DNA from: Xanthobacteraceae bacterium
GTDB taxonomy: Bacteria; Pseudomonadota; Alphaproteobacteria; Rhizobiales; Xanthobacteraceae
Length of the DNA: 64,000 nt
Direction: 5' to 3'
Assembly (NCBI GenBank): GCA_022844205.1
Contig: JALHMF010000002.1
Span: 372,001 to 436,000, forward strand
Positions 48,281 through 50,888 of this stretch are shown here, one piece after another. The notes below the pieces were generated by a model. The model saw nothing but the letters and a program-made list of their open reading frames with translations. It was not told the DNA's origin and searched no databases. How positions within the stretch are numbered: the stretch's first letter is position 1; every line of letters begins with the position of its first letter. A program made the position numbers and the translations under genes.

Positions 48281-50434
48281 TTACTCGGCGGCGCCGGCGG
48301 GTTCGCCTTCCGTCTTCTGCTTCGCTTCAAGGTCTTCGCCGGTCTGTTGATCGACGGCCTTCATCGAGAGCTTCACCTTGCCGCGATCGTCGAAGCCGAG
48401 AAGCTTCACCTTCACCTTGTCGCCTTCCTTGACGACGTCCGACGTCTTGTTCACGCGGCGCGGGGCAAGGTGCGAGATGTGGACGAGGCCGTCCTTCGGG
48501 CCGAAGAAGTTCACGAAGGCGCCGAAGTCCACGACCTTCACGACGGTGCCGTCGTAAATGGTGCCGACTTCCGGTTCCGACACAATGGTCTTGATCCAGT
48601 TCATCGCGGCCTTGATCGCCTCTCCGTTCGAGGAGGCGACCTTCACGGTGCCGTTGTCTTCCACGTTGATCTTGGCGCCGGTCTTTTCCACGATTTCGCG
48701 GATGACCTTGCCGCCAGTGCCGATCACTTCGCGGATTTTATCGACCGGGATCTGGATCACTTCGATGCGCGGAGCATGTTCGCCAAGCTCCGGACGAGCG
48801 GTGGTGAGCGCCTTGGCCATTTCGCCGAGGATGTGCAGACGGCCGTCCTTGGCCTGTGTCAGCGCCACCTTCATGATCTCTTCGGTGATGCCGGCGATCT
48901 TGATGTCCATCTGAAGCGCGGTGATGCCTGTGTCGGTGCCCGCGACCTTGAAGTCCATGTCACCGAGATGATCCTCGTCGCCGAGAATATCGGAGAGCAC
49001 CGCGAACTTCTTGCCTTCCAGGATCAGGCCCATCGCGATGCCAGCAACCGGGCGGCGGAGCGGAACGCCCGCATCCATCAGCGCGAGAGAGGCGCCGCAG
49101 ACCGTGGCCATCGAGCTTGAGCCGTTCGACTCCCAAATTTCCGACACGATACGCAGGGTGTACGGAAACTCGTGCGCAGCCGGCAGGATCGGATGGATTG
49201 ATCGCCAGGCGAGTTTGCCGTGACCGATTTCGCGGCGGCCCGGAGCGCCGGTGCGGCCGGTCTCGCCGACGGAGAAGTGCGGGAAATTATAGTGCAGCAG
49301 GAACCGTTCCTTGTAGGTACCGGTAAGCGCGTCGATGAACTGCTCATCTTCGCCGGTGCCAAGCGTGGCTACGCACATCGCCTGCGTTTCGCCGCGGGTG
49401 AAGAGTGCGGAACCATGCGTACGCGGCAATACGCCGACTTCCGCGACGATCGGACGGACGGTCTTGCCGTCGCGGCCGTCGATGCGTTTGCCGGTGTCCA
49501 GGATCGAGTTGCGCACGACCCTGGCTTCGAGTTCCTTGAACACGCCCATCACACGCGTGATCGCCGGTGCATCCTTGTCATCTTCGGCCAGAGTGAAGGC
49601 TTCCTTCACCTTGACCTTGGCGGCATCAACCGCCTTGTGGCGCTGCTGCTTCTCGCGGATCGAATAGGCGGCGCGGAGGTCGGATTCAACCAGCGAAGCG
49701 ATCTTCTTTTCGATTGCGCTGTTGTCGATGAGCTTCAGTTCGCGTGGTTCCTTCGCCGCCTTTTCCGCGAGGCGGATGATCATGTCGATCACCGGCTGGA
49801 AATGGCGGTGCCCGAACATCACCGAGCCGAGCATGACTTCTTCCGGAAGTTCCTTCGCTTCCGACTCGACCATCAGAACCGCATCGGCGGTGCCGGCGAC
49901 CACGAGCTCGAGGCTCGATTCCTTCATCTCGTCGATCTGCGGATTCAGCACGTACTCATTGTTGATGAAGCCAACGCGAGCCGCGCCGATCGGGCCCTGG
50001 AACGGCGCACCGGAAAGCGTCAGCGCGGCCGAAGCCGCCACCATCGCAACGACGTCAGGATCGTTTTCGAGATCGTGCGAAAGCACATTGATGGTGATCT
50101 GCGTGTCGCAGCGCCAGCCGTCAGCGAACAGCGGACGGATCGGACGGTCGATGAGACGCGAGATCAGCGTGTCGCGTTCCGTCGGACCGCGTTCGCGCTT
50201 GAAGTAGCCGCCCGGGATGCGTCCCGCGGCGTAGAATTTTTCCTGGTAGTTGACGGTGAGCGGAAGGAAATCGATTCCGGGCTTCGGCTCTTTTGCCGCC
50301 ACGACGGCGGCGAGAACGGTGGTGTCGCCGTAGGTGGCGAGCACGGCGCCGTCCGCCTGGCGCGCGGCGCGGCCGGTTTCGAGGACTAGCTTGCGGCCTC
50401 CCCAGTCGATTTCTTCACGATGAATGTTGAACAT
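48281..50434 (-). CDS. pnp: Polyribonucleotide nucleotidyltransferase (PNPase)
   Basis: 3'-to-5' phosphorolytic exonuclease and degradosome enzyme. 717 residues from ATG 50434 ([21 protein letters not shown]); longer frames run through the leader. Two RNase PH domains: FRRSFF-like [19 protein letters not shown] and [14 protein letters not shown], with catalytic Asp in [19 protein letters not shown]. Then a KH domain ([20 protein letters not shown]) and an S1 domain ([20 protein letters not shown]). Follows rpsO, as in most bacteria. Its leader holds a striking set of repeats (separate entry). Confidence 0.98.
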
Positions 50435-50439
50435 AGATT

Positions 50440-50552
50440 TTTTCCATGGCTTGCGGAGACGAAAAGCCATGGGCAAGACGGCAAGATGCTCGCCTCCGCG
50501 CGGTTGCGCGGCATGAGGTGAGCATCCAACGATCCTGCCATGGCTTTTGTCT
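50440..50552 (-). promoter_or_regulatory. pnp mRNA leader with mutually exclusive hairpins
   Basis: On the plus strand CCATGGCTT occurs at 50444-50452 and, extended to CCATGGCTTTT, at 50538-50548; its inverse AAAAGCCATGG is at 50462-50472. The middle arm can pair with the distal copy (11 bp, plus GCA/TGC and outer GAC/GTC pairs) to form a long stem enclosing GATGCTC / GAGCATC (50485-50491 with 50520-50526) and CCGCGC-GGTT-GCGCGG (50496-50511), or with the near copy (9 bp, 11-nt loop) right beside the pnp start at 50434. In E. coli, RNase III cuts a long pnp leader stem and PNPase then represses itself; the long stem here is a good candidate for the same. Confidence 0.75.
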
Positions 50553-50564
50553 TCCTTCGGTGAT

Positions 50565-50583
50565 GCGGCGGCCCTGCCGCCGC
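50565..50583 (-). terminator. GC-rich hairpin between rpsO and pnp
   Basis: GCGGCGGC-CCT-GCCGCCGC, a perfect 8-bp stem with a 3-nt loop, 36 bp after the rpsO stop. No T-tract follows. It could be a partial rpsO terminator or processing site, letting some transcripts run into pnp. Confidence 0.6.
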
Positions 50584-50618
50584 GGGCCCGCACGGTGCGA
50601 TCACCGCGCGGCGTGCGA

Positions 50619-50888
50619 TTAGCGGCGAATGTCCAGCCGCTCGATCAGTTTCTGGTAACGGGTTTCGTCCCTCGACTTCAGATAGTCGAGAAGTCCACGG
50701 CGCATCGCGACCATTTTCAACAGTCCGCGGCGCGAGTGGTTATCCTTCACATGGTTCTTGAAGTGGCCGGTCAGGTTGTTGATCCGTTCGGTGAGGATCG
50801 CGACCTGTACTTCGGGCGAACCGGTGTCGCCCTTCTTGGTGGCATAGTCGTTTACAAGCGCCTGCTTGCGCTCAGCCGTAATCGACAT
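50619..50888 (-). CDS. rpsO: 30S ribosomal protein S15
   Basis: Small-subunit assembly protein binding the 16S three-way junction. 89 residues from ATG 50888 ([20 protein letters not shown]), with GAAGGA six bases upstream. Motifs: [58 protein letters not shown]. Its own promoter likely lies in the 163-bp gap after truB (50889-51051), which also holds a CCGTAC-CA-GTACGG hairpin (51009-51022). Confidence 0.98.

Follow-up and report, generated by a model that had tools for sequence, protein, structure and literature searches.

Background

In Escherichia coli the rpsO-pnp leader is reportedly processed by RNase III and serves the autocontrol of PNPase, as Jarrige et al. are said to have described in 2001. 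In the leaders of phage lambda cIII and N and of E. coli adhE the access to the ribosome site is altered by alternative structures or by RNase III cutting; these are different genes, and their product is not known to be an exonuclease that consumes a guarding strand. According to an extract of PMC10362022, the pnp mRNA of E. coli is shielded from RNase E by a short RNA, which PNPase degrades; PNPase probably represses pnp translation by binding as well. Repression of PNPase by RNase III is reported for four other bacteria in an extract of PMC8708148, and an extract of PMC7866481 gives the pnp mRNA level as unaffected in an rnc mutant of Rhodobacter sphaeroides, a species whose leader lies outside the present comparison. 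The Actino-pnp RNA motif of Actinomycetales (Rfam RF01688) is classed as cis-regulatory (extract of PMC2864571). The leader presented here resembles it in being a conserved structured RNA tied to pnp, and differs from it in that Actino-pnp comes from another phylum. At E<=1 the window stretch had no match among the Rfam families, RF01688 included, nor did nine related loci have one at the gathering score. In the literature searched, which leaves subscription journals mostly uncovered and does not establish absence in print, no description was recognised of such a pnp switch or of a Hyphomicrobiales pnp leader.

Here we surveyed and analyzed the rpsO-pnp gap in a window of 64,000 nucleotides, the whole stretch of DNA under study, from a Xanthobacteraceae bacterium. 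Access to the ribosome site was measured as the cost of freeing -15..+3 in the whole leader as against the fragment without the 5' strand, all energies being ViennaRNA predictions without proteins or ribosomes. The window leader agrees with the E. coli one in its rpsO-pnp intergenic position and in a long stem with few interruptions that would suit RNase III as a substrate, and by analogy RNase III would be expected to cut it and PNPase to strip off the 5' strand here too. The two differ in the third arm, which the window leader has and the K-12 leader by folding lacks. In the K-12 gap the opening cost was 3.9 kcal/mol for the whole RNA, 2.7-2.8 kcal/mol when it was 5'-trimmed within the stem, 4.0-4.2 kcal/mol with 41-56 nt left and 5.4 kcal/mol with 31-36 nt left, whereas in the window it went from 4.6 to 10.0 kcal/mol upon removal of the 5' strand. 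The window leader is therefore treated as a variant and not as a plain member of the E. coli kind, since a ribosome site that stays open after strand removal (our own mark of that kind, not a published one) was not found in it. According to the original prediction no described pnp switch is known to have the three-arm layout; the lack of such a rise in K-12 fits this, and a literature search cannot prove newness. We consider it probable that the leader is a strand-release switch, a variant of the pnp leaders controlled by RNase III and PNPase.

Features of the locus

The feature lies in the gap between rpsO and pnp on the minus strand (rpsO stop 50621-50619, pnp ATG 50434-50432), and its parts are collected in Table 1; the upstream open reading frame is taken by us to be rpsO (S15). 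The three 9-bp copies that had been described, with no strand given, stand exactly at the stated positions, on the minus strand, as AAGCCATGG at 50546-50538 and 50452-50444 and as the complement CCATGGCTT at 50472-50464. The mRNA reads, from 5' to 3', distal AAGCCAUGG, a long insert, middle CCAUGGCUU, near AAGCCAUGG, 9 nt and AUG.

Table 1. Coordinates of the genes, arms and signals at the rpsO-pnp locus of the window
Feature	Position	Strand	Evidence
pnp (PNPase)	48281..50434	(-)	ORF; start ATG 50434-50432; homologues match from the same Met
rpsO (S15, as presumed), upstream gene	50619..50888	(-)	ORF; 5' strand expected at the 3' end of its mRNA
5' strand, base of long stem (distal arm GACAAAAGCCAUG)	50539..50551	(-)	MFE pairing with 50471-50458; alignment A1 pairs 6-138 to 17-128
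Upper stem 5' strand GCAGGAUCG, near-invariant	50530..50538	(-)	A1 columns 18-26 invariant or >=90% conserved, 80 rows
Upper part of long stem and apical loop, putative RNase III substrate	50481..50529	(-)	Continuous stem in MFE
Upper stem 3' strand CGUCUUGC, anti-Shine-Dalgarno-like	50473..50480	(-)	Conserved A1 columns
Middle arm (switch strand) CCAUGGCUUUUCGUC	50458..50472	(-)	Upstream-paired in whole leader, downstream-paired in fragment (predicted)
Near arm AAGCCAUGG	50444..50452	(-)	Pairs with 50472-50464 in fragment
GGA, Shine-Dalgarno-like triplet before pnp start	50443..50445	(-)	Sequence; both G's inside near arm

In the 3.17 Mb genome the 9-mer has 22 occurrences, both strands counted, and 3 of them fall within these 103 bases. 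A repeat with clusters in other parts of the genome was considered and rejected, as no such clustering was seen among the 22 places. The GGA triplet is equally placed in all four other genomes of the window's genus, and a gene for RNase III is present in the window's genome. By a simple scan, which may miss one, no sigma-70 promoter was seen between rpsO and pnp; the terminator scan gave two candidate sites for an expectation of 1.0, and one of the two is weak and overlaps the middle arm. A transcription attenuator was rejected as well, the near hairpin being followed by A and not by U. A second G+C-rich hairpin (GCGGCGGCAGGGCCGCCGC) at 50555-50615 (-), just past rpsO and without a U run, is possibly the 3' end of rpsO.

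Leaders and alignment

Leaders came from 80 named loci, from 5 genomes of the genus (the window's own included) and from a family sample, in which 288 of 296 genomes had a PNPase. Through their best listed matches these 288 genomes supplied 121 leaders of the GTDB family, window included, as 91 fetched short stretches and 30 family-sample loci; Bradyrhizobium-like genera are thin among them. Two were dropped (L194 without the motif, L207 with runs of N) and 119 were parsed. Nearly all 121 have a common order of parts, GCCAUG-GCAGGAU[C/U]GC-NGGACGCUG...CAGCNUCUCGCCGUCUUGCUCAUGGCUUUCG, which in the larger genera is followed by ...CGAAAACCAUGAGAGA...AUG; by our reading this last part carries the Shine-Dalgarno (SD) sequence, GAGAGA. 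The alignment A1 was made of 80 of the 119 leaders, while 39 were omitted as near-duplicates or as members of genera with a differing near region (g148, g155, g160, g178, g3, g166 and g180 among them), so that percentages from A1 favour the near helix.

Folding of the leader and access to the ribosome site

At minimum free energy (MFE; -71.3 kcal/mol, z -5.66) the whole window leader is a single long stem interrupted by few mismatches, and the two inner hairpins that had been expected between the distal arms gave way in it to one nearly continuous stem. The distal pairing extends beyond 9 bp, with about 13 bp at the base and a continuation into the upper stem, and the near pairing has 9-10 bp in the fragment fold. 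The 3' fragment from 50487 folds the near hairpin by itself; the stability of the window fragment is about that of its shuffles (z -0.43).

The original prediction stated that the inverted middle copy can pair with only one partner at a time, and that once freed it refolds onto the near copy and closes the ribosome site. Both statements are supported by the predicted folds, in which the partner of the middle arm lies upstream in the whole leader and downstream in the fragment; when the 5' strand is deleted from the computed RNA, the ribosome site closes. Across the 119 leaders the upstream pairing of the middle arm has a mean probability of 0.83 in the whole leader (above 0.5 in 116/119) and the downstream pairing 0.04, and in the fragment the downstream pairing reaches 0.72 (above 0.5 in 103/119). 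The mean opening cost goes from 4.67 to 8.78 kcal/mol, with a rise of more than 1 in 101 of 119 leaders. The rise, 4.11 on average, stands against 0.60 for a shuffled near region and 2.72 for a 5' part taken over from another genus; per genus, own exceeds shuffled in 26/30 (Wilcoxon p=3e-7) and swapped in 21/30 (p=0.004). The mean cost stays at 8.6-9.3 wherever the cut is placed between -22 and +3 of UCUUG, and it drops to 6.75 when the cut goes into the middle arm and to 5.16 when it goes through it. In the window alone the rise vanishes with the cut 22 nt before UCUUG (4.8).

These probabilities bear on a switch or thermometer at equilibrium, in which a protein, ribosome traffic or temperature would shift the balance of distal and near pairing and no cleavage is needed. 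The two pairings are mutually exclusive, as such a device would have it, and the invariant upper stem with its fixed G.U and C.C seems to exceed what a simple duplex calls for and could be a protein's binding site; but with the downstream pairing of the middle arm at 0.04 in whole leaders, computed at one temperature, the intact stem would first have to be opened, and we judge this explanation quite unlikely.

The place of the near hairpin would also suit a 5' cap which stabilises the processed pnp mRNA and does not block translation, as the hairpin would sit close to the new 5' end after cleavage. It includes SD bases in many groups, however, and in some leaders of family f29 (L272, L274) the AUG itself is drawn into the pairing, none of which is needed for a mere cap, and this function is highly improbable.

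The middle arm contains an AUG in 115 of 119 leaders, and in 57 leaders the pnp frame meets a stop ahead of pnp, in 34 cases after 9 codons, as might be expected of a short upstream reading frame that controls pnp. Such control is hardly credible against the mixed frames (the pnp frame in 65 leaders, the two other frames in 24 and 26, no AUG in 4), the lack of a visible SD ahead of this AUG and its inclusion in the paired core. In the window the middle-arm AUG is in the pnp frame and would extend PNPase by 12 residues (50470-50434, minus strand); the extension is unlikely to be real, as the corresponding frame hits a stop just before the pnp AUG in L125 and L126, two of the genus's four further genomes. 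In one genome of the same genus (L133, also L093) an in-frame TAG stands at pnp codon 7, which may be a sequencing error or a broken gene.

Conservation and covariation of the two helices

It had been asked whether relatives keep the three arms with covariation. Most of the sampled leaders do, and in A1 both helices score above their shuffles. Over its 80 leaders the covariation of the near helix is 0.172 against 0.124 shuffled and that of the distal stem 0.157 against 0.106, neither being reached by any of 500 shuffles, with the reservation that related rows may top shuffles without any structure. The distal stem has 30 pairs with 88.5% of cells paired; in the near helix 79.2% are paired, as compared with 28-68% when the helix is slid. 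Two of the five near-helix measures are not clearly above shuffles, namely pairs with two-sided changes (60/500) and pair types (67/500). At the near pair 127-164, 15 genera have U-A and 4, the window's genus among them, have C-G; at the near pair 139-148, C-G and G-C occur in 7 genera each. At column 132 the distal, middle and near positions are altered jointly (U, A, U) in three rows, all of genus g164. The core of the middle arm is nearly invariant, as expected for bases with two partners, and covariation there is limited for this reason. The near pair 133-157 is non-standard in 71/80 rows and the distal partner of 133 pairs in 80/80, which makes the near helix the weaker of the two by design. 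When run on A1, RNAalifold gave the distal stem only, the near helix not being predicted. The leader has two mutually exclusive helices, each with comparative support, as befits a two-state RNA switch; a difference in output between the two states is predicted from the opening costs.

The apical part of the long stem (50481..50529) differs among the genomes of A1. The GCAGGAUCG/CGUCUUGC upper stem (50530-50538 with 50473-50480) is more invariant in A1 than pairing demands, and this near-invariance includes an unvarying G.U at 21-123 and, in 80/80 rows, a 25-119 mismatch that is mostly C.C. A contact with a protein or a rule of the RNase III site is a possible cause. We read GCAGGAUCG as SD-like; by our reading GCAGGAU would mimic the SD and GUCUUGC the anti-SD.

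Proposed mechanism

The switch mechanism is the likeliest reading of this conserved architecture. In the intact read-through transcript the 5' strand (AAAAGCCAUG-GCAGGAUCG) would hold the 3' strand (CGUCUUGC-CCAUGG-CUUUUC), and the pnp ribosome site would be open, which corresponds to ON. RNase III would cut the long stem, and the rpsO-side strand would stay base-paired to the pnp leader; abundant PNPase would then digest this strand from its new 3' end, and the freed 3' strand would fold forward onto the near arm and close the ribosome site, which corresponds to OFF. PNPase would in this manner gauge its own activity by eating the strand that keeps the pnp mRNA open. The cleavage by RNase III, the digestion of the strand by PNPase and the fall of translation in the cell are inferred. 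If true, the scheme would explain directly, in terms of structure, how pnp translation is turned off by the loss of one RNA strand, and the leader would be an RNA switch responding to the activity of an enzyme and not to a small ligand.

Distribution in the order

The covariance model of A1 matched 162 of 297 genomes of the order, with 24 families among the matches listed. In a class-wide sample it matched 3 of 190, all in the same order (the window's own and two others); both searches, best fits included, were run with strict filters. If the proposed mechanism is true, it would amount to an RNA element without an Rfam match that the model finds in 162 of the 297 genomes sampled from the order. 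A pattern search of the order (118/397), in which chance matches were mixed in and 80 bases were given per match, was superseded by the covariance model search.

From the listed model matches 60 leaders of 23 other families were hand-picked, the model behind this pick having been built on leaders that bear the near arm; 4 of the 60 were skipped, as the start or the motif was not found in the stretch, and 56 from 22 families were usable. Their opening cost goes from 5.15 to 7.94, a rise of 2.79 against 0.62 shuffled and of more than 1 in 40/56, and 19 of the 22 other families are above shuffled (p=1.5e-4). When 5' parts were exchanged between families, the rise over 86 leaders was 3.14 with the own part and 1.59 with that of another family, the own part being better in 17/23 families including f1 (p=0.008) and, for single non-f1 leaders, in 36/56. 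By named genus (folding covered 46 of the 80 named loci) the rise is +6.5 to +8.6 in Microvirga, +4.9 and +5.7 in Ancylobacter and +7.1 in Xanthobacter agilis.

The extent of this rise is also relevant to control of the E. coli type only, in which the stem is just the RNase III site, PNPase strips the strand, the message is lost via RNase E or through PNPase binding, and the near hairpin has no regulatory part. The shared gene order and the equally placed long stem speak in its favour, and E. coli pnp is so controlled (extract of PMC10362022), without a third arm in the K-12 fold. It leaves the near helix, which is conserved and covaries, and the excess of the rise over shuffled in 26/30 genera and 19/22 other families without a role, and we hold it to be rather unlikely.

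For the strand-release switch the other families add that the closing arm is not the same throughout. In several of the 22 a different closing sequence pairs with the common 3' strand, as seen in f14 (L280) with CGAGCCAUGAGGCA against UGCCCAUGGCUCG, in f16 (L257) with CCAUGAGGCAAGA against UCUUGCCCAUGG and in f24 (L290) with GGACAAGACA against UGUCUUG, and in several families folding pairs the counterpart of the CGUCUUGC strand with the SD after strand removal. A tentative extension, which we hold to be somewhat less likely than not, is a switch common to the order Hyphomicrobiales that senses the catalysis of the enzyme it encodes: an SD-like 5' strand would guard an anti-SD 3' strand, digestion by PNPase would free the anti-SD, and the closing arm would have been re-invented by lineage (CCAUGAG in Xanthobacteraceae; GGACAAGAC, CGAGCCAUGAGGC and others elsewhere).

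Groups without the rise

No rise was seen in genera g148, g160, g163 and g172 among the 30 genera of the family sample, nor in the two Bosea leaders (-1.8, +0.1) among the 46 of 80 named loci that were folded, and it was little or absent in families f11, f21, f40 and f41 among the 56 leaders of 22 other families. In Bradyrhizobium, again among these 46 loci, only 6 of 12 leaders rise by more than 1, and the other 6 are without a clear rise. Loci L043, L046, L064 and L072 and similar ones of the Bradyrhizobium type have a separate local hairpin, for example CUUUCGUG with CAUGAAAG, which covers the pnp SD. This local hairpin is another way to close the pnp ribosome site.
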